NCBI RefSeq assembly: GCF_009720485.1
Contig: NZ_CP045245.1
Location: 3,782,001 to 3,846,000 of the forward strand
Direction: 5' to 3'
DNA: 64,000 nt
Source of the DNA: Cellulomonas sp. JZ18
GTDB taxonomy: Bacteria > Actinomycetota > Actinomycetes > Actinomycetales > Cellulomonadaceae
Below are positions 34,573 through 59,709 of the stretch, piece by piece. The translations under genes and the position numbers were made by a program. Below the pieces are notes generated by a model. The model did no database searches. It had not been told where the DNA came from and saw nothing but the letters and a program-made list of their open reading frames with translations. The first letter of the stretch is position 1; the number at the start of each line of letters is the position of its first letter.

Positions 34573-34582
34573 CAAACGTTTA
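34573..34582 (+). promoter_or_regulatory. LacI-type box upstream of DUF4352-like gene
   Basis: CAAACGTTTA has the AAACGTTT core of the boxes found before the LPMO genes. It lies 175 bp upstream of the start at 34758, with TACGGT near 34600 as a possible -10. Position fits regulation but the outer bases differ from the LPMO boxes. Confidence 0.3.
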
Positions 34583-34757: not shown

Positions 34758-35402
34758 GTGACCACGTCCCGCGCCCACAGCCCGGCAGCGCACCCCGCGA
34801 CCGGCGCGACGCCCGTCGCGCCGGCCCGACCGGCCGGGCCCGACGACCCCGAGGGCACCGGCACCGGGACGGGCCGTGCCCGGGTGTGGGGCGCGGTCGG
34901 CCTCGTCGTGGCCGTGCTCGCCGTCGTCCTCGTCGTGCGGTCCGGGCTGGGCTCGACCGCCGGCACGGCGGCCGCACCCGCCGGTGCGGCCTCTCCCGAG
35001 GTGCTCGACGCGGGCCACACGACGTTCGGGACGGCGTTCGCGTACGCGGACGGCCTCGAGGTCGAGGTCGGCGCACCGCAGCCGTTCACGCCGTCGCCCC
35101 TCGCGTCCGGCGCGGACCCCGGCCGGACCACCGTCCTCGTCGAGGTCACGGTCACCAACGGGACCGAGAGGACCTACCGCGCCAGCACGCTCGCCGTCAC
35201 CGCGTCCTCGGGGAGCACGCAGGCACCGCAGGTCGCGGACCCGCAGCACGCGGTCGAGCTATCCGGGCCCGCCTTCGCGGTGCCGCCGGGCGGTGAGGTG
35301 TCGTTCCGCCTCGGCTTTGCGGTGGACCGCCCGGACGATCTGCGCCTGACGGTCATCCCGGCCATCTACGGCTACGCACCGCTCGTCGTCGCGGACGTGT
35401 GA
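34758..35402 (+). CDS. DUF4352-like membrane-anchored protein (214 aa)
   Basis: GTG 34758 is chosen because AGGAGG (34743-34748) sits 9 nt before it. A Pro/Gly-rich cytoplasmic head (about 45 residues) precedes a single hydrophobic helix (VWGAVGLVVAVLAVVLVV). An extracytoplasmic beta-sandwich with DUF4352-type motifs follows (VLVEVTVTNGTERTYRAS, SFRLGFAVDRPDDLRLTVIP). It is a tandem relative of the lipoprotein at 35706. Function unknown; the fold is common in secreted and lipid-anchored proteins of Gram-positives. Confidence 0.75.
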   Translation: MTTSRAHSPAAHPATGATPVAPARPAGPDDPEGTGTGTGRARVWGAVGLVVAVLAVVLVVRSGLGSTAGTAAAPAGAASPEVLDAGHTTFGTAFAYADGLEVEVGAPQPFTPSPLASGADPGRTTVLVEVTVTNGTERTYRASTLAVTASSGSTQAPQVADPQHAVELSGPAFAVPPGGEVSFRLGFAVDRPDDLRLTVIPAIYGYAPLVVADV

Positions 35403-49692: not shown

Positions 49693-49719
49693 TCGAACCG
49701 CTTGCGCACGAAACGCTTC
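49693..49719 (+). promoter_or_regulatory. Two LacI-type boxes upstream of LPMO gene 1
   Basis: TCGAACCGCTTGC (49693-49705) and GAAACGCTTC (49710-49719), about 140 bp before the start at 49851. The second is of the same type as the boxes before the other two LPMO genes (GAAACGGTTC, GAAACGTTTC). Confidence 0.6.
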
Positions 49720-49850
49720 AGGGCCTTCCCGCCCGCCCGGCCGCACCGGGACCGTGGGGGCCCGACGCGCCCGCAGCCGACGGGTCGGCACCGTCGCCGC
49801 ACCCGGCCTCCCGGCGCCGCCCCGCGCGTCCCGACCGACGGGAGACCCGC

Positions 49851-50924
49851 ATGCACCGCAGGAACCGGCTGCGCACGCTCGCGCTCGCCGTGCCGCTGGC
49901 CGTCGCCGCGACGACCGTGGTCGCCGCCGCCCCGGCGGCGGCGCACGGCTCGGTGACGGACCCGCCCACCCGCAACTACCGCTGCTGGGACGTGTGGGGC
50001 GGCCGCTTCCAGGACCCCGCCATGCAGACGCAGGACCCGATGTGCTGGCAGGCCTGGCAGGCGGACACCAACGCGATGTGGAACTGGAACGGCCTCTACC
50101 ACGAGGGCATCGGCGGCCGGCACGAGGAGCTCATCCCGGACGGGCAGCTGTGCTCGGGCGGCCGCACCGAGGGCGGCCGCTACGACGCGATGGACGTCCC
50201 GGGCCCGTGGGTCGCGACCACCGTGCCGCAGCGCTTCACGCTCACGCTCACCGACCAGGCGAAGCACGGCGCGGACTACCTGCGCGTGTACGTGACGAAG
50301 CCGGGCTTCGACCCCACCCGCGAGGCGCCCGCGTGGGACGACATGCAGCTGCTGAAGGTCACGGGCCGCTACGCGCCCGCCGGCGAGTACCGCACGGACG
50401 TCGACCTCACCGGTCGGTCGGGACGCGCGATCCTCTACACGATCTGGCAGGCCAGCCACAGCGACCAGCCCTACTACCTGTGCAGCGACATCAGCGTGGG
50501 CGGTCCGGCGCCCACCCCGACCGTCACGCCGACGCCGACCCCGACGCCGACGGCCACGCCGACCCGCACGCCGACCCCCACGCCGACGCCGACTCCCACG
50601 CCGACCGTCACCCCGACCGCCACGCCCACCCCCACCCCGACGCCCGGCACGGGCGCGTGCACCGCGGCCGTGCGCGTCGTGAACTCGTGGCCGGGCGGCT
50701 GGCAGGGCGAGCTGACCGTCACCGCGGGCGCGTCCGGCACGACCGGGTGGCGGGCCACCGTCGCCGGCGCCACCGTCACGCAGGCGTGGAACGCGTCGGC
50801 GTCGGGCGGCGCGCTGACGAACGCGGCGTGGAACGGCACGCTCGCCCCAGGGGCCTCGACGACGGCGGGCTTCCTCGCGTCGGGCTCCGCGGGCACACCG
50901 ACGGCGACGTGCACGGGGGCGTGA
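49851..50924 (+). CDS. Secreted lytic polysaccharide monooxygenase (AA10) with CBM2
   Basis: 357 residues. Signal peptide 1-31 ends AAA before H32, so the mature protein begins with the copper-binding His (HGSVTDPPTRNYRCWDVWGG). The second histidine-brace His is about H139 (AKHGADYLRVYVTKPGF). The AA10 domain (32-219) resembles Streptomyces LPMO10B-type cellulose/chitin enzymes. A Pro/Thr linker (about 220-266) joins a CBM2 (about 268-357, CTAAVRVVNSWPGGWQGELT) that binds crystalline cellulose. It oxidatively cleaves cellulose outside the cell using an electron donor and O2/H2O2. ATG 49851 follows GGGAGACCCGC. LacI-type boxes lie 130-160 bp upstream. Confidence 0.95.
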   Translation: MHRRNRLRTLALAVPLAVAATTVVAAAPAAAHGSVTDPPTRNYRCWDVWGGRFQDPAMQTQDPMCWQAWQADTNAMWNWNGLYHEGIGGRHEELIPDGQLCSGGRTEGGRYDAMDVPGPWVATTVPQRFTLTLTDQAKHGADYLRVYVTKPGFDPTREAPAWDDMQLLKVTGRYAPAGEYRTDVDLTGRSGRAILYTIWQASHSDQPYYLCSDISVGGPAPTPTVTPTPTPTPTATPTRTPTPTPTPTPTPTVTPTATPTPTPTPGTGACTAAVRVVNSWPGGWQGELTVTAGASGTTGWRATVAGATVTQAWNASASGGALTNAAWNGTLAPGASTTAGFLASGSAGTPTATCTGA

Positions 50925-51103
50925 CCCCGGCCTGACCGCGTCCGCCGGTGCGAGGTCGCGGGTCGTGCGCCAGGTCGCGGGTCCGGCACCCGTGACGGGC
51001 CGGGACCCGCGACCTCGCACCGGCGTGGCGGCCGCGCCCCTCGCGCCGCGCACGGTGGCGCGGCAGGCTGGCCCCCAGGGGTCCGGCGACGGGAGGCGGC
51101 GCG

Positions 51104-52438
51104 ATGACGTCCAGCGACGACACGAGCAGGACCACGTGCGTCGTGGTCGGCGCGGGGCCCGCCGGGCTGGTCCTCGGCCTGCTCCTCGCGCGCGCCGGCG
51201 TGCACGTGACCGTGCTCGAGAAGCACGCCGACTTCCTGCGCGACTTCCGTGGCGACACGGTGCACCCGACGACGCTGGCGATGCTCGACGACCTCGGCCT
51301 GGGCGAGCGGTTCGCCGCGCTGCCGCACTCGCGCGTGGCGCGCGTGACCGTGCCGACGGGCAGCGGCGAGGCCGTCCTCGCCGACTTCGACCGGCTGCCG
51401 CTGCGGCACCCGTACGTCGCGATGGTCCCGCAGTGGGACCTGCTCACCCTGCTCGCGGAGGCCGCCGCGCAGGAGCCGACCTTCGACCTGCGGGTGCGCC
51501 ACGAGGTGACGGGTGTGCTGCGCGAGGGCGACCGTGTGACCGGTGTCGAGCTGCGCACGCCCGACGGCCCGCGACGGCTGCGCGCGGACCTCGTCGTCGC
51601 GTGCGACGGCCGCTGGTCCGTGGTGCGCCGGTCGGTCGGGCTGCCCGCGCGGCGCCACCGGGTCGGCTTCGACGTGTGGTGGGTGCGCGTGCCGACCCGC
51701 CGCGACGTGGGCGAGTCGCTGCTGCCGCGCCTGACGCGCGGGCGCGCGGCCGTGGCGATCCCGCGCGAGGGGTACCTGCAGCTCGCGTACCTCGGCCCCA
51801 AGGGCACCGACGCCGCGCTGCGGGCCCGCGGCCTCGACGCGTTCCGCGCCGAGGTGGCCGCGCTCGTGCCCGAGGTCACGGACGACGTCGGCGCGATCGC
51901 CTCGATGGACGACGTCAAGCACCTGGACGTGCGGATGGACGTGCTGCGCCGGTGGCACGCGCCGGGTGTGCTGTGCATCGGGGACGCGGCGCACGCGATG
52001 TCCCCGGCCGGCGGGGTCGGCATCAACCTCGCGGTGCAGGACGCGGTGGCGGCGGCGCGGCTGCTCGCGGGCCCGCTGCGCCGCGGCACGCTGCGCGGTC
52101 CGGCCGGCGACCGCGTGCTCGCCCGGGTGCGGCGTCGGCGGCTGCTGCCCACCGTCGTGGTGCAGGCCGTGCAGCGGGCCGTGCACGCGCGGCTGCTGGT
52201 GCCCGCGGTCGAGGGCCGGGCGAGCGGGCCGCCGCCGTGGCTGCTCGCGCTCGTGCGGCGCGTGCCGGTGCTGACGGCGCTGCCGGCCCTGGCGATCGGG
52301 GTGGGGCCGCGTCCGGAGCGCGTGCCGCTGTGGGCGCGCCGTCCCCCCGTCGACACCGCGCCCCCTGCCCGTCCGGCGGGCCGAGGTCCGCGACACGCCG
52401 CTCCCCCGGGCACCGACTCGACGGTCGCGCGCTCCTGA
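51104..52438 (+). CDS. FAD-dependent oxidoreductase/monooxygenase (PHBH-like)
   Basis: 444 residues, ATG 51104 after GGGAGGCGGCG. FAD motifs of the aromatic hydroxylase family: GxGxxG as VVVGAGPAGLVLGLLLARAG, the DG motif VACDGRWSVVRRSVGL, and the GD motif VLCIGDAAHAMSPAGGVGIN. The C-terminal 90 residues are Arg/Pro-rich and disordered. No signal peptide, so cytoplasmic. Substrate unknown. It lies between two LPMO genes but is probably unrelated to LPMO electron supply because it is not secreted. Its TGA overlaps the operator of the next LPMO gene. Confidence 0.9.
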   Translation: MTSSDDTSRTTCVVVGAGPAGLVLGLLLARAGVHVTVLEKHADFLRDFRGDTVHPTTLAMLDDLGLGERFAALPHSRVARVTVPTGSGEAVLADFDRLPLRHPYVAMVPQWDLLTLLAEAAAQEPTFDLRVRHEVTGVLREGDRVTGVELRTPDGPRRLRADLVVACDGRWSVVRRSVGLPARRHRVGFDVWWVRVPTRRDVGESLLPRLTRGRAAVAIPREGYLQLAYLGPKGTDAALRARGLDAFRAEVAALVPEVTDDVGAIASMDDVKHLDVRMDVLRRWHAPGVLCIGDAAHAMSPAGGVGINLAVQDAVAAARLLAGPLRRGTLRGPAGDRVLARVRRRRLLPTVVVQAVQRAVHARLLVPAVEGRASGPPPWLLALVRRVPVLTALPALAIGVGPRPERVPLWARRPPVDTAPPARPAGRGPRHAAPPGTDSTVARS

Positions 52439-52446
52439 AACGGTTC
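52437..52446 (+). promoter_or_regulatory. LacI-type box upstream of LPMO gene 2
   Basis: GAAACGGTTC begins on the FAD-gene stop codon, 127 bp before the LPMO start at 52573. It matches the boxes upstream of LPMO genes 1 and 3 in sequence and distance. Confidence 0.6.
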
Positions 52447-52572
52447 GACCCCTCCCGCACGCGGGATCGCTCCCGCACGGTAATGCGGACCCCCGGACGT
52501 CCGCCGCGGCTTCGACATCGATGTCGAATCGTCACGACGGGCCCCGATCCCCCTGCGGACAGGAGAACCTGC

Positions 52573-53634
52573 ATGTCCACCCGTGTGCGTGACCGGCTGC
52601 GCCGGATCGCCCTCGCCCTGCCCGCCGCCATGCTGGCGGCCGGCCTCGGCATGACCCTCGCCGCCACCCCTGCCGCCGCCCACGGCTCCGTGACCGACCC
52701 GCCCAGCCGCAACTACGGCTGCTGGGAGCGCTGGGGCGACGACCACCTGAACCCCGCCATGGCCACCCAGGACCCGATGTGCTGGCAGGCGTTCCAGGCC
52801 AACCCGAACACGATGTGGAACTGGAACGGCCTCTTCCGTGAGGGCGTCGGCGGCCGGCACGAGCAGGTCATCCCGAACGGCCAGCTCTGCTCCGGCGGCC
52901 GGACGCAGAACGGCCTGTACGCGTCGCTCGACACCCCGGGCGCGTGGACGATGAAGACCGTCCCGACCAGCTTCCAGCTGACGCTGACCGACGGCGCCAA
53001 GCACGGTGCCGACTACATGCGCATCTACGTCTCCAAGCCGGGCTTCGACCCGACCCGCGAGGCGCTCGGCTGGGACGACATCACCCTGGTCAAGGAGACC
53101 GGCCGCTACGGCACCACGGGCCTGTACCAGACCGACGTGAACCTCGCGGGCCGCTCGGGCCGCGCGGTGCTCTTCACGATCTGGCAGGCCAGCCACCTCG
53201 ACCAGCCGTACTACATCTGCTCGGACATCAACATCGGCGGCACCGCGCCGACGCAGCAGCCGACGCAGCAGCCCACCCAGCAGCCCACCCAGCAGCCCAC
53301 CCAGCAGCCCACCCAGCAGCCGACCCAGCAGCCCACCCAGCAGCCCACGCAGCAGCCCACGGGCGCCTGCACGGCCACGGTCTCGGTGACCAACTCGTGG
53401 GGCGGCGGCTACCAGGCCGACGTCCGGGTGACGGCCGGCACGTCCGGTGTCCGCGGCTGGAAGGTGACGGTCAACGGCGCCACCATCACGCAGTCGTGGA
53501 ACGCGACGGCGTCCGGGAACGTCCTGAGCAACGTCGGCTGGAACGGCACGCTGGCGGCGAACGCGTCGACGAGCTTCGGCTTCATCGGCTCGGGCTCGCC
53601 GTCCGGCCTGACGGCCACCTGCTCGGCGGCGTGA
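52573..53634 (+). CDS. Secreted lytic polysaccharide monooxygenase (AA10) with CBM2, PTQQ linker
   Basis: 353 residues, ATG 52573 after AGGAGAACCTGC. Signal peptide 1-36 ends TPAAA before H37; the mature protein starts HGSVTDPPSRNYGCWERWGD and the second copper His is about H144 (AKHGADYMRIYVSKPGF). It is a close relative of the gene-1 product. The linker is unusual: nine PTQQ repeats instead of the PT-rich linkers of the other two. A CBM2 (CTATVSVTNSWGGGYQADVR) ends the protein. Expected to oxidise cellulose and perhaps chitin. A strong 17-bp-stem terminator follows. Confidence 0.95.
   Translation: MSTRVRDRLRRIALALPAAMLAAGLGMTLAATPAAAHGSVTDPPSRNYGCWERWGDDHLNPAMATQDPMCWQAFQANPNTMWNWNGLFREGVGGRHEQVIPNGQLCSGGRTQNGLYASLDTPGAWTMKTVPTSFQLTLTDGAKHGADYMRIYVSKPGFDPTREALGWDDITLVKETGRYGTTGLYQTDVNLAGRSGRAVLFTIWQASHLDQPYYICSDINIGGTAPTQQPTQQPTQQPTQQPTQQPTQQPTQQPTQQPTQQPTGACTATVSVTNSWGGGYQADVRVTAGTSGVRGWKVTVNGATITQSWNATASGNVLSNVGWNGTLAANASTSFGFIGSGSPSGLTATCSAA
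53248..53355 (+). repeat. 12-bp tandem repeat coding for (PTQQ)9 linker
   Basis: Nine in-frame copies of CCNACNCAGCAG with third-base variation (CCG/CCC, ACG/ACC). It separates the AA10 and CBM2 domains. Copy number can change by slippage without frameshift, altering linker length. Confidence 0.9.
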
Positions 53635-53689
53635 CCCTGACGGCCTGACCGTCCGGCGGCACGAGCCGGACGCCAGGTCACGCACCACC

Positions 53690-53731
53690 CGGGGCCCGGG
53701 TGCAGCACCTCTCCGCTGCACCCGGGCCCCG
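53690..53731. terminator. Bidirectional terminator after LPMO gene 2
   Basis: CGGGGCCCGGGTGCAGC (53690-53706) pairs perfectly with 53715-53731 around ACCTCTCC, between the convergent LPMO and GT2 genes. Its 17-bp stem is among the longest in the window. Confidence 0.85.
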
Positions 53732-53786
53732 TCGCGTGCGCGTCCCGCCGCCCGTCGCGTGCGCGTCCCGCCGCGGCGGCGGGCGC

Positions 53787-54788
53787 TCAGCCGATGGGCT
53801 GCAGCAGGTCGAGCAGCACGTCCTTGCGCCCGCGGGCGAGCCGGTCGTAGGCGCCGCCCGACGCGGTGCGCAGCACGTGCGGCGCACGCAGCAGCCGGTT
53901 GCGCGGGTACCGCGAGCGCACCCGCTCGTGCCGCAGGTTGTCGACCGCGAGCTCGTAGGCCCAGTCCTGCACGTGCGGGCGGATGGCGTCGAGGCCGGCG
54001 ACCAGCGCCTCGGCCCGTGCCAGCAGCCGCGCGTTGCGCTCACCGCCCGGCTCGCGCAGCATCCGCAGCTTCTCCCCCACGCCGCGCCGGCGCACGCCCC
54101 CGGAGGTGTTCGTCGGGTGCGTGCGGTAGCGCAGCCCGGGGCGCTCGTCGAGCGCCACGCCACCGGTCGCGGCCGCGAGCAGCGCCAGCCAGGCGTCGGT
54201 GCGGAAGCCGTGCGGGACGGGCGGGACCAGGTCGAGCAGGTCCCGGCGCAGCGCGGCGGTGGCGCCGTGCGCGAGGAACCGCCGCACGAGCACCCGGAAC
54301 CCCTCGCCCGCCCGGTACTGCGCGAGCTCGTCCGCGGTCACGCCCTCCGTGCGCAGCATCGACGTCGAGACCGTCGCGCCGTCGCTGTCGACGATCTCCG
54401 CCTCGCAGTGCACGAGCAGCAGCTCCGGGCGGGCCGCGAACATCTCGACGGCGTGGGCGAACCGGTCCGGCAGGCACACGTCGTCGTGGTCGCACACCAC
54501 GACGACGTCCCCGGTGCACGCCGCGTACGTCCGCGCCATGTTGGCGTCGAGCGGCGTCGGCTGCGACGGCAGGATCGTCCACTCGACGGGCAGGCCCGCG
54601 GCCCGCGTGCGCTCGACGTACGCGCGGACCAGCTCCTGCGACCCGTCCGTCGACCCCGCGTCCGCCACGACGACCTGGTCGGGCAGGCGGGTCTGGGCGA
54701 GGATCGAGTCGATCTGGTCGCCGAGGTAGCGGACCGCGTTCGTGGACGTGACGGCCGCGGAGACCGTGAGCGCGCGCGGATCGGCCAT
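53787..54788 (-). CDS. Glycosyltransferase family 2
   Basis: 333 residues, ATG 54786-54788 after GGGGGAGGACG. GT-A features: N-terminal LTVSAAVTSTNAVRYLGDQI, the nucleotide-binding VVVADAGSTDGS, and the metal-binding DHDD in VVVVCDHDDVCLPDRFAHAV. It would transfer a sugar from a nucleotide donor onto a wall, capsule or rhamnan-type glycan. No membrane helix is evident. It is divergent from the NHL-thioredoxin gene and convergent with LPMO gene 2. Confidence 0.9.
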   Translation of the reverse strand: MADPRALTVSAAVTSTNAVRYLGDQIDSILAQTRLPDQVVVADAGSTDGSQELVRAYVERTRAAGLPVEWTILPSQPTPLDANMARTYAACTGDVVVVCDHDDVCLPDRFAHAVEMFAARPELLLVHCEAEIVDSDGATVSTSMLRTEGVTADELAQYRAGEGFRVLVRRFLAHGATAALRRDLLDLVPPVPHGFRTDAWLALLAAATGGVALDERPGLRYRTHPTNTSGGVRRRGVGEKLRMLREPGGERNARLLARAEALVAGLDAIRPHVQDWAYELAVDNLRHERVRSRYPRNRLLRAPHVLRTASGGAYDRLARGRKDVLLDLLQPIG

Positions 54789-54928
54789 GACCGACGTCCT
54801 CCCCCGGGGTCGTGCGGACGCCGCGGGTCGTGACCTGCGCCGCAGCGCCGTCACCGTACCGGACATATCGGGCGACCGGCAGTGGTCCCGGCACCCGGCA
54901 GGGGGTGAACCGGTGGGAGACTACGGGC

Positions 54929-56854
54929 GTGACCGAGACGACCACCCGCCTGCCCCGCGTCCGCGCGTCCGAGCTCGTCGGGCGCGGCTGGCTCAACACC
55001 GGCGGCGAGACCGTGACGCTGGCCGACCTGCGCGGCAAGGTCGTCGTCCTCGACTTCTGGACGTTCTGCTGCATCAACTGCCTGCACGTGCTCGACGAGC
55101 TGCGCGAGATCGAGGAGCGGCACCGCGACGTGCTCGTCATCGTCGGCGTGCACTCGCCGAAGTTCGTGCACGAGGCCGACCCGGTGGCGCTCGCGGCGGC
55201 CGTCGAGCGGTACGAGGTGCACCACCCGGTGCTCGACGACCCCGAGCTCGTGACGTGGCAGGCGTACACCGCGCGCGCGTGGCCGACGCTCGTCGTGATC
55301 GACCCCGAGGGCTACGTCGTCGCGCAGATGGCCGGCGAGGGGCACGCGCACGCCGTCGAGGCGCTCGTCGAGGAGCTCGTCGCGGAGCACGAGGCGAAGG
55401 GCACGCTGCACCGCGGGTCCGGCCCGTACGTGCCGCCGCAGCCGCAGCCCTCGACGCTGCGGTTCCCCGCCAAGGCCGTCGAGCTGCCGGGCGGGAACCT
55501 CCTCGTGGCCGACGCCGGGCACCACGCGCTCACCGAGCTCGCCGCGGACGGCGAGACGCTCGTGCGGCGCATCGGGTCCGGCGAGCGCGGGCTCGTGGAC
55601 GGCGGCCCGGACGAGGCGCGGTTCAGCGAGCCGAACGGGCTGTGCCTCGTGCCGGAGGACCTGCGCGAGCGGCTCGGGTACGACGTGCTCGTCGCGGACA
55701 CCGTCAACCACGCGCTGCGCGGGGTGCGGCTGACGGACGGGCACGTGACGACGGTCGCGGGCACGGGCCAGCAGTACATGGTCGGCGCGGTCGACAACGT
55801 CCTCCCGCCCGAGGACGGGGCGACGGCGGACCCGGCCGAGCCGCAGTCCGGCGACCGCTTCGCGGCGACCCGCGTCAAGCTGTCGTCCCCGTGGGACGTG
55901 GCGTGGTCGCCCGAGCTGCGGGCGTTCGTGGTCGCGATGGCCGGGAACCACACGCTGTGGTCGTTCGACCCCGAGCTCGCGGTCGTCGCGCGCATGGCGG
56001 GCACGATGAACGAGGGCCTCGTCGACGGGCACCCCGACGAGGCGTGGTTCGCCCAGCCCTCCGGCCTGTCCCGCGGTGCCGACGGCAGGCTCTGGCTGGC
56101 CGACGCGGAGACGTCGGCAGTGCGGTGGTTCGACCCGCAGGACGGGTTCGTGCACAGCGCCGCCGGGACGGGCCTGTTCGACTTCGGCCACCGCGACGGC
56201 TCGGCCGACCAGGCGCTCTTCCAGCACCCGCTGGGTGTGGCCGCCCTGCCGGACGGCTCGGTGCTCGTCGCCGACACCTACAACGGCGCGCTGCGCCGCT
56301 GGACGCCCGGCGCCGACGGCGGCGGCCCCGGTGAGGTCAGCACGCTCGCGACCGGCCTCGCCGAGCCGAGCGGCCTGGTGCTGCCGGCCGACGGCGGGCA
56401 CGTGCTGGTCGTCGAGTCGGCCGCGCACCGCCTGACGCGCGTCCCGCTGCCCGCGGGTGCCGCCGGCGAGCAGGTCGACGGCGGCGCGCACCGCACGCAG
56501 CGCCCGGTGACGGAGGTGCCCGGCGGCGCGCTCACGCTCGAGGTCGTGTTCACGCCGGCGCCCGGGCAGAAGCTCGACACGCGGTGGGGCCCGTCGACGT
56601 CGCTGCGCGTCTCGTCGACCCCGCCGGGGCTGCTGCTCGACGGCGCGGGCGACGACGTGGACCTGACGCGCACGCTGCGCATCGACCCGGCCGTCGGCGA
56701 GGGCGTCCTGCACGTCACCGCCCGCGCGGCGAGCTGCGACGCGGACGAGTCGATCGAGCACCCGGCCTGCCACCTGGCGGCGCAGGACTGGGGCGTGCCG
56801 GTGCGCGTCGTCGACGGCGCGCCGGACGTGCTCACGCTGCCGCTGCTGGGCTGA
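54929..56854 (+). CDS. NHL repeat-containing thioredoxin-like protein (NHLRC2-like)
   Basis: 641 residues from GTG 54929. Residues 1-150 are a thioredoxin-like fold with a WTFCCINCLHVLDEL active site (C48-I-N-C51). Residues about 170-520 are NHL beta-propeller repeats (LLVADAGHHALTELAADGET; VLVADTVNHALRGVRLTDGH; WLADAETSAVRWFDPQDGFV; VLVADTYNGALRRWTPGADG). A C-terminal domain follows (about 530-641). The architecture matches NHLRC2 and its bacterial relatives, predicted disulfide-handling proteins with unknown partner. No signal peptide. A 12-bp-stem terminator lies 6 nt after the stop. Confidence 0.92.
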   Translation: MTETTTRLPRVRASELVGRGWLNTGGETVTLADLRGKVVVLDFWTFCCINCLHVLDELREIEERHRDVLVIVGVHSPKFVHEADPVALAAAVERYEVHHPVLDDPELVTWQAYTARAWPTLVVIDPEGYVVAQMAGEGHAHAVEALVEELVAEHEAKGTLHRGSGPYVPPQPQPSTLRFPAKAVELPGGNLLVADAGHHALTELAADGETLVRRIGSGERGLVDGGPDEARFSEPNGLCLVPEDLRERLGYDVLVADTVNHALRGVRLTDGHVTTVAGTGQQYMVGAVDNVLPPEDGATADPAEPQSGDRFAATRVKLSSPWDVAWSPELRAFVVAMAGNHTLWSFDPELAVVARMAGTMNEGLVDGHPDEAWFAQPSGLSRGADGRLWLADAETSAVRWFDPQDGFVHSAAGTGLFDFGHRDGSADQALFQHPLGVAALPDGSVLVADTYNGALRRWTPGADGGGPGEVSTLATGLAEPSGLVLPADGGHVLVVESAAHRLTRVPLPAGAAGEQVDGGAHRTQRPVTEVPGGALTLEVVFTPAPGQKLDTRWGPSTSLRVSSTPPGLLLDGAGDDVDLTRTLRIDPAVGEGVLHVTARAASCDADESIEHPACHLAAQDWGVPVRVVDGAPDVLTLPLLG

Positions 56855-56859
56855 CGCGC

Positions 56860-56889
56860 GCAGGCCGGCCCGAGGACGGGCCGGCCTGC
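56860..56889. terminator. Bidirectional terminator
   Basis: GCAGGCCGGCCC and GGGCCGGCCTGC form a perfect 12-bp stem around a 6-nt loop, directly between the convergent NHL and GGDEF genes. Confidence 0.85.
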
Positions 56890-56890
56890 G

Positions 56891-58378
56891 TCAGTGCGCG
56901 TCGCCGACGGCGATCGCCATGAGCACCGACAGCGCGGTGCGGACCTGCGGGCCCGCCGACGCGGCGCTCGACGCGGCGATCTCGACGACCCACTCGCCGC
57001 GCTCGACGGTCAGGGACTGCGTCTCGCCCGCGTCGGCGGGGCTGCCGCCGCGCGCGACCGTCGCGGGCTCCCCCTCGCCGGCGCGGCGCAGCACCGCCCA
57101 CTCGTCGCCGCCGAGCGTCTCGGTCGCGGCACCGGCGAGCGCGAGCAGCCGCGGCACGACGCCCGGCTGGGCGGCGCCGATGGCGACGGCCCCGGTGGCG
57201 ACCAGGCGCTCCACGGCGACGGTCGGGTCGGCGACCGCCGGCAGCGTGCGGGCGCGGGCGCGGGCACGGCGGCGCTTCGCCTGGTACTGGGCCTGGTCGG
57301 CACGGCGGAACAGCGAGCGGGCGCCGACCGCGCCCATGACGGCCGTGGAGGCGATGCCGTAGGAGATCGCGGCGCCGTGCGGCAGCGGGAACTTCGCGAC
57401 GGTCGCCGCCATGGTCTCGGTGACGGCGGCGCGCGGCTGCCCGACCGTCACGAGGCAGAACTCGTCGCCGCCGATGCGGGCGGCGGTCGTGCCCGGCAGG
57501 GCGTCGGACGCCCGTCGCAGCACGTCGGCGACGGCGCGCAGCAGGTCGTCGCCCGCGTCGTGGCCCAGCTCGTCGTTGACCCGCTTGAGGCCGTCGACGT
57601 CGCACATGACGATGCAGACCTCGCGGCCCGAGGCGAGCGCGGCGTCGGCGGCCTGGTCGGCGACGCGCCGGTTGGCGAGCCCCGTCAGCGGGTCGTCGGC
57701 GATCATGTGCCGGACCTGGTGCTCGAGGTCGACGCGGGCGATCGCGCCGGCCGTGAGCGCGGCGAGCACCTCCGCGGTCGCCACGTCGTCGACGTCGAAG
57801 CGCGGCGCCTCGACGGAGCGCACGACCGTGATCTGCCCCCACACCGAGTCGTTGACGACGATCGGCGAGCTGAGGGCGGAGGCCGCCCCGAGCTCGCGCA
57901 GCGCCTCGACCTCGACCCGGTCGCCCGCGGACTCGTCGCCGGGCAGGACCGAGCGGCCGCGCTCGTCGAAGGCGTGCGCGACCCAGCTCGCGCGGTCGCG
58001 GATCAGGCCGCGCAGCGCGGGCCTGTCCTCCGCGCGGTACGTCGCGGCGACGAACGCGAGGGAGCGCGGGTCCTCCGGAGGCGGCTCGACCCGCACGATG
58101 CGGCACGTGTCCTGGGAGATGCGGCACAGCGCCGCGGTGTCCGCCGCGAGCACGTCGAGGGCGATCGTCGCCGCCGCCTCCAGCACCGAGTCGACGTCCC
58201 GGCACGCGTCGAAGCGGTGCGCGGCGACCGCCAGCCCGCGCACGCCACCGAGGTCCGCAGCCGAGAGCCCGCCCCGGTGCGCACCCTTGGCAGTCGTGCC
58301 CCGACGCGTCACCGGGACATCATCGACCCTCCGGGCACCGGACGCCGAGACCGACCCGTGAGAGGTCGGTGAGATCAC
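56891..58378 (-). CDS. GAF-GGDEF protein (predicted diguanylate cyclase)
   Basis: 495 residues if read from GTG 58376-58378; an in-frame GTG at about 58312 ([14 protein letters not shown]) is an alternative start. Residues about 45-215 form a GAF sensor ([40 protein letters not shown]). Residues about 225-375 form a GGDEF domain with [32 protein letters not shown] and an intact RIGGDEF near 300, so cyclic di-GMP synthesis is expected. A C-terminal GAF-like remnant (about 390-495) is unusual. Cytoplasmic. It sits divergent from the third LPMO gene with less than 40 bp to its operator. Confidence 0.88.
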
Positions 58379-58412
58379 CCTCGTGCGCGAACGCGGGACG
58401 CTCCTGCAGCGG

Positions 58413-58422
58413 GAAACGTTTC
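58413..58422 (+). promoter_or_regulatory. LacI-type box upstream of LPMO gene 3
   Basis: GAAACGTTTC is a perfect palindrome, 118 bp before the start at 58540. Together with GAAACGCTTC (49710) and GAAACGGTTC (52437) it defines a shared motif of the three LPMO genes. Confidence 0.65.
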
Positions 58423-58539
58423 GGAGGCTTGTCGGCCACGGGTGCGCTCATGAGCCTGTCGGCACACGTCTCCCCCGTCCGGAGGCCGTGGCCCACCCCC
58501 GACCGCGGCGACGACGCCGCCCCTGCGAGAGGGACACCC

Positions 58540-59709
58540 ATGACCACCCGACACCGCCTCGCCCGCCGAGCCCTGGCCGGGCTCGCGGCGACGACCGTGC
58601 TGGCGGGGGCGCTCGTCGCCCTGCCGACGGCCGCCCAGGCCCACGGCGGCCTGACCTACCCCGCCACCCGGACGTACCAGTGCTACGTCGACGGCCTCGC
58701 CGGCGGCCAGGCCGCCGGGCAGGCGGGCAACATGCTGCCGACGAACCCGGCGTGCAAGAACGCCCTCGCGTCGAACAGCTACGGCTTCTACAACTGGTTC
58801 GGCAACCTGCTCGGCACCATCGACGGCCGGCACGAGACGATCCCCGACGGCAAGCTCTGCGGCCCGGACTCGCGCTTCGACGCGTTCAACACGCCGAGCT
58901 CGTCGTGGCCGACCACGCGCGTGCAGCCGGGCCAGCGGATCACGTTCCAGTACGCGGCGACCGTGCCGCACCCGGGCTGGTGGACGCAGTACATCACCAA
59001 GGACGGCTGGAACCAGGACGAGCCGATCGGCTGGGACGACCTCGAGCCCGTGCCGTTCGACCGCGTCCTGAACCCCCCGCTGCGCAACGGCGGCCCCACC
59101 GGCCCCGAGTACGCCTGGGACGCGACCCTGCCGAACAAGTCCGGCAAGCACGTGATCTTCTCGATCTGGGAGCGCACCGACAGCCCCGAGTCGTTCTACA
59201 ACTGCTCGGACGTGGACTTCGGCGGCGGCGGCAGCACGCCGAACCCGACGCCGACGGCGACGCGGACGCCCACGCCGACCCCGACGGCGACGCGCACCCC
59301 CACGCCGACCCCCACGCCCACGCGCACCGCCACCCCGACGCCCACGCCCACGCCCACGCCCACGCCCACCGCGACCCCGACCGTCCCGGCCGACGCCCGC
59401 TGCGAGGTCGAGATCGACGTCACCAACGCGTGGCAGGGCGGGTTCCAGGGCGACGTCACGGTGTTCAACGCGACGATGGAGCCGGTCAACGGGTGGGAGC
59501 TCACGTGGCGCTTCACGAACGGCGAGAAGGTCACGCAGTCGTGGAGCTCGACCGCGACGCAGACCGGTGACACGGTGACGGTGCGGAACGCCGCCTGGAA
59601 CGCGACGATCGGGCACCACAACGCGGTGTCGTTCGGGTTCATCGGCTCCGGCACGCCGAAGGCGGCCACGGCGGTGACGCTGAACGGCTCGCCCTGCATC
59701 GTCCGCTGA
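58540..59709 (+). CDS. Secreted cellulose-active LPMO (AA10, CelS2-like) with CBM2
   Basis: 389 residues, ATG 58540 after CGAGAGGGACACCC. Signal peptide 1-34 ends AQA before H35; the mature start is [20 protein letters not shown] and the second copper His is about H144 ([16 protein letters not shown]). This belongs to a different AA10 branch from the other two, closest in wording to Streptomyces CelS2/LPMO10C, which is strictly cellulose-active (C1-oxidising). A PT-rich linker (about 235-285) joins a CBM2 (about 288-389, [20 protein letters not shown]). Expected to cooperate with the other two LPMOs and with cellulases encoded elsewhere. Confidence 0.95.

Follow-up and report, generated by a model that had tools for sequence, protein, structure and literature searches.

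A palindromic box in fixed register with a −10-like element at LPMO and other plant-cell-wall genes of Cellulomonas: a candidate LacI-type regulon with composite promoters

The window, the whole 64-kb stretch of DNA analyzed here, covers positions 3,782,001–3,846,000 of the single contig (4,043,325 bp) used for the genome scan and carries three LPMO genes, each preceded by one copy of the box GAAACGNTTC (Table 1). Gene reading confirms that these genes are non-contiguous, with unrelated genes lying between them, and the distances of 131 (box 1), 126 (box 2), and 117 bp (box 3) from the end of the box to the ATG that an earlier note on this DNA had reported are exact. The pattern occurs at no other place in the window, where 0.05 places are expected (mean of 100 dinucleotide shuffles); four matching rows correspond to three places because box 3, being palindromic, is counted on both strands. 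The first bases of box 2 overlap the stop codon of the gene at 51104–52438. Two further sites were observed nearby: an imperfect second box, GAACCGCTTG, at 49696–49705, 14 bp upstream of box 1, and a CelR-like palindrome with two mismatches, CGGGATCGCTCCCG, at 52462–52475, between the predicted −35 and −10 elements of LPMO2.

Table 1. Boxes, LPMO genes and predicted promoter elements in the window (window coordinates; offsets counted from the box start).
Feature	Coordinates	Strand	Details	Basis
Box 1	49710..49719	+	GAAACGCTTC	pattern match
Predicted −10-like element, LPMO1	49750..49755	+	GACCGT; +40; 2/3 key bases	inferred
LPMO1	49851..50924	+	LPMO_10 + CBM2	Pfam
Box 2	52437..52446	+	GAAACGGTTC	pattern match
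Predicted −10-like element, LPMO2	52476..52481	+	CACGGT; +39; 2/3 key bases	inferred
LPMO2	52573..53634	+	LPMO_10 + CBM2	Pfam
Box 3	58413..58422	+	GAAACGTTTC; perfect palindrome	pattern match
Predicted −35-like element, LPMO3	58429..58434	+	TTGTCG	inferred; TTGT at this offset in 7/7 orthologs
Predicted −10-like element, LPMO3	58452..58457	+	GAGCCT; +39; 2/3 key bases	inferred; NANNNT at +39 in 7/7 orthologs
LPMO3	58540..59709	+	LPMO_10 + CBM2	Pfam

The genome-wide scan that had been suggested as a check for enrichment near CAZyme genes bore the idea out. There are 20 distinct places with GAAACGNTTC (21 matching rows, since one perfect palindrome is counted on both strands), against 3.1 or 2.3 places expected from Markov models of order 1 or order 2, respectively, built on 280 kb of the same genome (Poisson P ~1.5e-12); the reversed pattern, used as a control, has no match in the whole genome. 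The surroundings of all 20 places were read with a simple codon-usage gene finder, 20 proteins from these places and the window were searched against Pfam, and signal peptides of the target proteins were judged by eye. Thirteen of the 20 places lie upstream, in the correct orientation, of genes for polysaccharide-acting or cellulose-binding proteins: GH9 (L001 and L009, the full protein being checked for L009), pectate lyase (L002), GH10 (L004 and L012), rhamnogalacturonan lyase with CBM2 (L005), a BNR-repeat protein with CBM2 that is xyloglucanase-like by our reading (L008), GDSL esterase with CBM2 (L010), four LPMOs with CBM2 (L015 and the three in the window), and a CBM2 protein with an esterase-like part, whose Peptidase_S9 match is below the cut-off (L020). 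Of the remaining seven places, one stands before a gene whose product has no Pfam match (L016), two lie in promoters that a LacI gene shares with sugar genes (L006, with a mutarotase named by eye, and L013), and four appear unrelated (FKBP at L003; L007 and L011, without a Pfam match; L014, outside the Pfam set), which is about the number expected by chance.

A looser pattern, BAAACGNTTV, has 19 forward and 23 reverse matches at 36 distinct places, against 1 and 2 matches of its reversed control. Five of the 16 extra places precede CAZyme-type genes identified by Pfam: GH48 with CBM2 (L117; protein in L147), GH5 with CBM2 (L121; protein in L148), GH62 (L120; protein in L150), a fifth LPMO with a divergent GH10 gene (L127), and a polysaccharide deacetylase gene followed by a GH11 gene (L126). 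A box is present at all five LPMO_10 genes met in this genome. The earlier note had proposed a scattered LPMO regulon with a LacI-like operator; the scattered regulon and the form of the operator are supported, but the restriction to LPMOs falls with the GH9, GH10, pectinase, and esterase-like targets. The predicted regulon is not LPMO-only: here and in relatives, the box is common to cellulase, xylanase, pectinase, esterase-like, and LPMO genes.

Across 60 genomes of the genus, the box pattern gives 619 strand matches versus 51 for the reversed control (palindromes counted twice) and exceeds the control in all 60, with at least 10 boxes in 33 genomes and five or fewer (1–5) in 22. A scan of named genomes for LPMO3 returned nine loci, eight of them titled Cellulomonas; once L164, which covers the protein end only, was set aside, seven Cellulomonas orthologs with upstream DNA were available, and the box is kept as GAAACGTTT[C/A] in all seven, while the upstream DNA of the Phytohabitans homolog lacks GAAACGTTT[C/A]. 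Six box-rich genomes have no close ortholog of the LacI gene L038 (see below), and all 38 box places were read in four of them (G031, G056, G002, and G039, the other two being G004 and G005). In G031, G056, and G002, 13 of the 26 boxes stand before genes of kinds like those targeted in the genome studied here (GH5, GH6 with CBM2, GH10, pectate lyase, rhamnogalacturonan lyase with CBM2, another CBM2 protein, and LPMO; the L186 protein was assigned by its 91% identity to L167, not by Pfam), and three more precede GH3 genes. In G039, none of the 12 places precedes a cellulase or xylanase gene; among their neighbors are a GH3 gene, sugar genes of aldolase type, a LacI gene paired with a binding-protein gene, and a gene whose product weakly resembles pectate lyase, with a match below the cut-off. 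The regulon would thus be widespread in the genus, not universal. In two outgroup genomes from another family of the order (G071 and G088), where 20 of 24 listed places were read by eye, without Pfam, no secreted cellulase or xylanase was seen among the 20 boxes; some boxes lie inside genes and others at LacI, rhamnose-type, GH31-like, or other genes. G056 and G031 also carry, each in addition, an exact box 82–84 bp before a sigma-factor-like gene, out of register (L165, L182), and another about 420 bp before a dnaN-like gene (L177, L196), both genes being named by eye.

The position of the box relative to the promoter was analyzed in 31 CAZyme-type promoters aligned on the box in the direction of the gene: 13 from relatives and 18 from this genome, the latter made up of 14 of the 20 exact places (13 CAZyme/CBM2 genes and L016) and four looser ones (L117, L121, L126, and L127). 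The informative columns outside the box are −1 (T/C), +10 (G/A), +16 (T), and +39, +40, and +44 (T, A, and T). The last three columns match the key bases of actinobacterial −10 elements, TANNNT. A score for these bases peaks at +39 in each set taken separately, reaching 26 in this genome (maximum of 2000 shift permutations, 18) and 21 in the relatives (permutation maximum, 16); on the mirrored upstream side it is 10 and 13, respectively. At least two of the three key bases are present at +38 to +40 in 15 of 18 promoters of this genome and 11 of 13 of the relatives (26 of 31 CAZyme boxes), versus five of the 26 other boxes of this genome, some of which were scored in both directions, and a background of 9%; the GH62 promoter (L120) was scored among the 26, and moving it to the CAZymes makes the score of this genome 15/19. 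T at +44 occurs in 18 of 27 promoters when orthologous pairs are removed, and both NANNNT at +39 and TTGT at +16 are kept in all seven LPMO3 orthologs. The register is not kept by four of the 20 exact boxes of this genome, by most of the boxes at GH3 genes (two of the three GH3 promoters of relatives and that of G039 among them), or by the GH62 promoter.

Distance to the start codon is more variable: box centers lie 123–264 bp from the predicted starts (14 boxes of this genome), some of which were probably placed too late. What the earlier note took as a fixed distance to the start is better understood as a constant distance to the promoter, marked by the −10-like element. A box related to those of the LPMO genes had also been reported at 34573; CAAACGTTTA, a match to AAACGTTT, does lie at 34573–34582, upstream of a gene at 34758, but on neither strand does it have a −10 at +38 to +40 (score of 0–1 of 3); the TANNNT closest to it is TACGGT, beginning at +28. 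With a layout unlike that of the CAZyme boxes, it is probably a different site and not the module found at the LPMO genes.

If the NANNNT element is taken as the −10, transcription would start ~51 bp after the start of the box, and the center of the box would lie near −46. Each promoter would then be composite, with the box directly upstream of a weak −35: box, 5–6 bp, a (T/C)TG-type −35, ~18 bp, and the NANNNT −10. Activator-dependent promoters are expected to have their site at a constant position, and the box does keep one with respect to the −10-like element. Such a register suggests that the bound regulator contacts RNA polymerase, which would favor an activator or a contact-dependent switch.

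The binder itself would belong to the LacI family. GAAACGNTTC is a palindrome with the central CG expected of LacI-family operators, perfect in box 3 as well as in several of the relatives' boxes. This genome has 31 LacI-type matches, and comparison with relatives reveals conserved palindromes upstream of several of these genes: CGAATCGATTCG at L054, TCGAAGCGCTTCGA-type at L031, CGATAACGTTATCG-type at L043, TGGTGACGTCACCA-type at L030, GAAACCGGTTCC/GGAACCGGTTTC at L049, and GCAAACGTTTGC at L038. Those of L054 and L031 share a GAA-N-CG-N-TTC skeleton, which supports a LacI-type reader of the box, although none of these palindromes takes the CAZyme form. A LacI-family controller, as envisaged in the earlier note, is plausible on these grounds, but none of the LacI genes can be assigned to the box: no LacI gene was found with a CAZyme-type box in CAZyme register at its own promoter, and the boxes near L006, L013/L040, and L046 either are out of register or belong to a LacI gene that is not conserved with the regulon.

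The GH3-linked L038 is associated with the box, its orthologs (at least 70% identity) being present in 37 of 60 genomes with a mean of 13.1 boxes, versus 5.9 in those without (Mann-Whitney P 2e-5, uncorrected for kinship). However, CAZyme promoters still carry boxes in G031 and G056, where L038 has no match at E ≤ 1e-60, and in G002, where its best match is 41%, and the promoter of L038 itself has GCAAACGTTTGC in close orthologs (nine of the 10 closest loci, the copy in this genome being one base off), mostly without the register. In the promoter between L038 and a GH3-type gene (L118, L085–L094), a second palindrome-like site, CGAAACGTSTCG or CGGAAACTTTCG, was observed ~50 bp from GCAAACGTTTGC. 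Orthologs of L046 occur in 20 of 60 genomes, some of them box-poor, and are missing from box-rich ones, so that the association is weak (P 0.014); L040 is found in this genome and in three of 60 genomes at 51–53%, other matches lying near 42%.

Presence of the LacI genes was also compared in a small sample of five genomes, this genome and box-rich G031 versus box-poor G036, G001, and G057, with 31 queries (L029 by a C-terminal piece only). For G057, 37 of 39 LacI matches entered the comparison; the L038 ortholog (71%) is among the other two, so that the value of 48% obtained for L038 is too low. L054, with its own motif CGAATCGATTCG, is kept at 70–73% in the three box-poor genomes too, and L037, linked to GH127, is 82% identical in box-poor G057. 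L045, L049, and L273 are present only in the box-rich genomes; the operator of L049 differs from the box. L045 lies directly upstream of a GH6 cellulase gene (Pfam), whose counterpart beside L045 in G031 encodes a protein 82% identical over 123 residues and carries the box TAAACGATTC with TCACCT at +39, where the copy in this genome reads TAAACAATTC; L045 is the best lead for the regulator of the box, but an unlikely one. A protein encoded divergently from L045 (L045:1805-3136; L328:5185-7884) has LacI-type sugar-binding domains in this genome and in G031, where it is ~900 aa long, and the piece tested gave no LacI DNA-binding match. The LacI gene beside rhamnose-type genes (L029:632-1674) reads as two overlapping open frames of 101 and 245 aa, so a frameshift or an assembly error may have split it.

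Taken from sequence, the enrichment, the targets, the conservation, and the fixed register make it somewhat likely that a box of approximate form YGAAACGNTTCR is the site of a LacI-type regulator governing one plant-cell-wall regulon of Cellulomonas from composite promoters, with LPMOs as members among many. The putative regulator, presumably a LacI-family dimer, would bind the box at scattered plant-cell-wall genes and touch RNA polymerase there, more probably as an activator or contact-dependent switch than as a simple blocking repressor; polymerase contact, and hence activation, would be at least as likely as plain repression. The fuller reading, in which a putative LacI-type activator at a palindrome near −46 recruits RNA polymerase and so switches on cellulases, xylanases, pectinases, and LPMOs, is quite possible, though somewhat less likely than not.

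Repression by a classic LacI-type protein is a possible if rather doubtful alternative. The boxes would be operators relieved by oligosaccharide, as for CelR and BxlR, and the register would reflect a preferred blocking position beside the −35; the palindrome is LacI-like, and the described actinobacterial LacI-type control of such genes is repression in the parts of the sources consulted (CelR, PMC3377646; BxlR, PMC12772271). Yet blocking needs no register within 1 bp, such as 26 of 31 boxes keep, and the box lies upstream of the core promoter, not over it. It is very unlikely that the boxes are not one regulon and that several LacI paralogs read overlapping GAA-N-CG-N-TTC sites: the related operators at L054 and L031 do differ mainly at the N positions, rhamnose-type and LacI promoters (L006, L013) match the pattern too, and G039 has the pattern at other genes, but the promoter register is common to the CAZyme boxes and mostly absent elsewhere (26/31 vs. 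5/26). The three LPMOs in the window are paralogs, which would fit an origin of the boxes in a single promoter copied along with duplicated LPMO or other CAZyme genes. However, the target genes come from many unrelated families, and the flanks of the 18 promoters of this genome are no more alike outside the box than by chance (mean pairwise identity 0.33, largest 0.46, expected 0.31), so the register is not copied sequence and this origin is barely credible. The −35 motifs of some ECF sigma factors resemble GAAAC, but the box can hardly be the −35 of an alternative sigma factor, since it is palindromic and since the 29 bp between its end and the −10-like element are more than one sigma factor could span.

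In the literature searched, the co-ordination of the secreted cellulase system of Cellulomonas has no settled account: a 2012 genome survey, in the part consulted, gives a motif without naming a regulator. The survey lists 15 occurrences of that motif, CNAA(T/A)CGNTTA/C, in C. flavigena; they lie before nearly all cellulase genes and also before that of a GH10-GH62 protein, separate from CelR (Anderson et al., 2012; PMC3377646); no other description of this box was found in the one literature collection searched. The genus, the AA(T/A)CGNTT core, which the boxes described here contain, and the cellulase targets are the same. The C. flavigena motif, as given in the part of the source consulted, differs in demanding a C before the box, which is present in five of 18 promoters of this genome and six of 13 of the relatives, and in having a G at +13 (the fourth base after the box), present in eight of 18 and eight of 13, respectively. 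Neither LPMOs nor pectinases are mentioned in the consulted part of the survey, nor are a promoter register or tests of regulators (PMC3377646). Relative to it, this analysis adds LPMOs and pectinases as members, a view across the genus, the register with the promoter, and the poor fit of three candidate regulators (L038, L040, and L046). The proposed composite promoter, the target list with its LPMOs and pectinases, and these three poorly fitting candidates make the question of co-ordination directly testable, and the composite promoter would offer a ready promoter design for enzyme production.

CelR of Thermobifida fusca binds TGGGAGCGCTCCCA at scattered cellulase genes as a repressor released by cellobiose, according to the part of the source consulted (PMC3377646). 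Both systems place a palindrome of LacI type, with CG at its center, at dispersed cellulase genes, but the half site is GGGAGC for CelR and GAAACG here, in agreement with the earlier view that the LPMO operator is distinct from the CelR-type box. None of the box sequences matches TGGGAGCGCTCCCA with one mismatch or fewer, and TGGGANCGNTCCCA occurs in the window only with two mismatches, three times, 3.0 being expected by chance. The CelR-like gene L050 adjoins a predicted cellobiose ABC operon (named by eye) and is kept at 76–84% in the three box-poor genomes too.

BxlR of Streptomyces, also of the LacI family, acts at secreted xylanases through CGAANxTTCG (CGAANNTTTCG) sites, as far as the consulted part of the source goes (PMC12772271). 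Its sites share with the boxes a GAA...TTC palindrome at secreted xylanase genes and appear to differ in center and spacing. The boxes here are GAA-N4-TTC, with a C before the box in five of 18 promoters of this genome, and the spacing of the BxlR site is loosely defined in that part of the source. In this genome, the LacI gene L043, beside a GH3 gene and an ABC operon, has CGATAACGTTATCG upstream. Some LacI-family regulators contact RNA polymerase, among them GalR and Cra of E. coli and CcpA of Bacillus. The putative regulator of the box would work alike, binding a LacI-type operator ahead of the −35 and touching the polymerase, a likeness drawn from promoter layout. If the activator reading is true, the plant-cell-wall genes of Cellulomonas would be positively controlled, in contrast to the repression modeled for other actinobacteria with CelR and BxlR.
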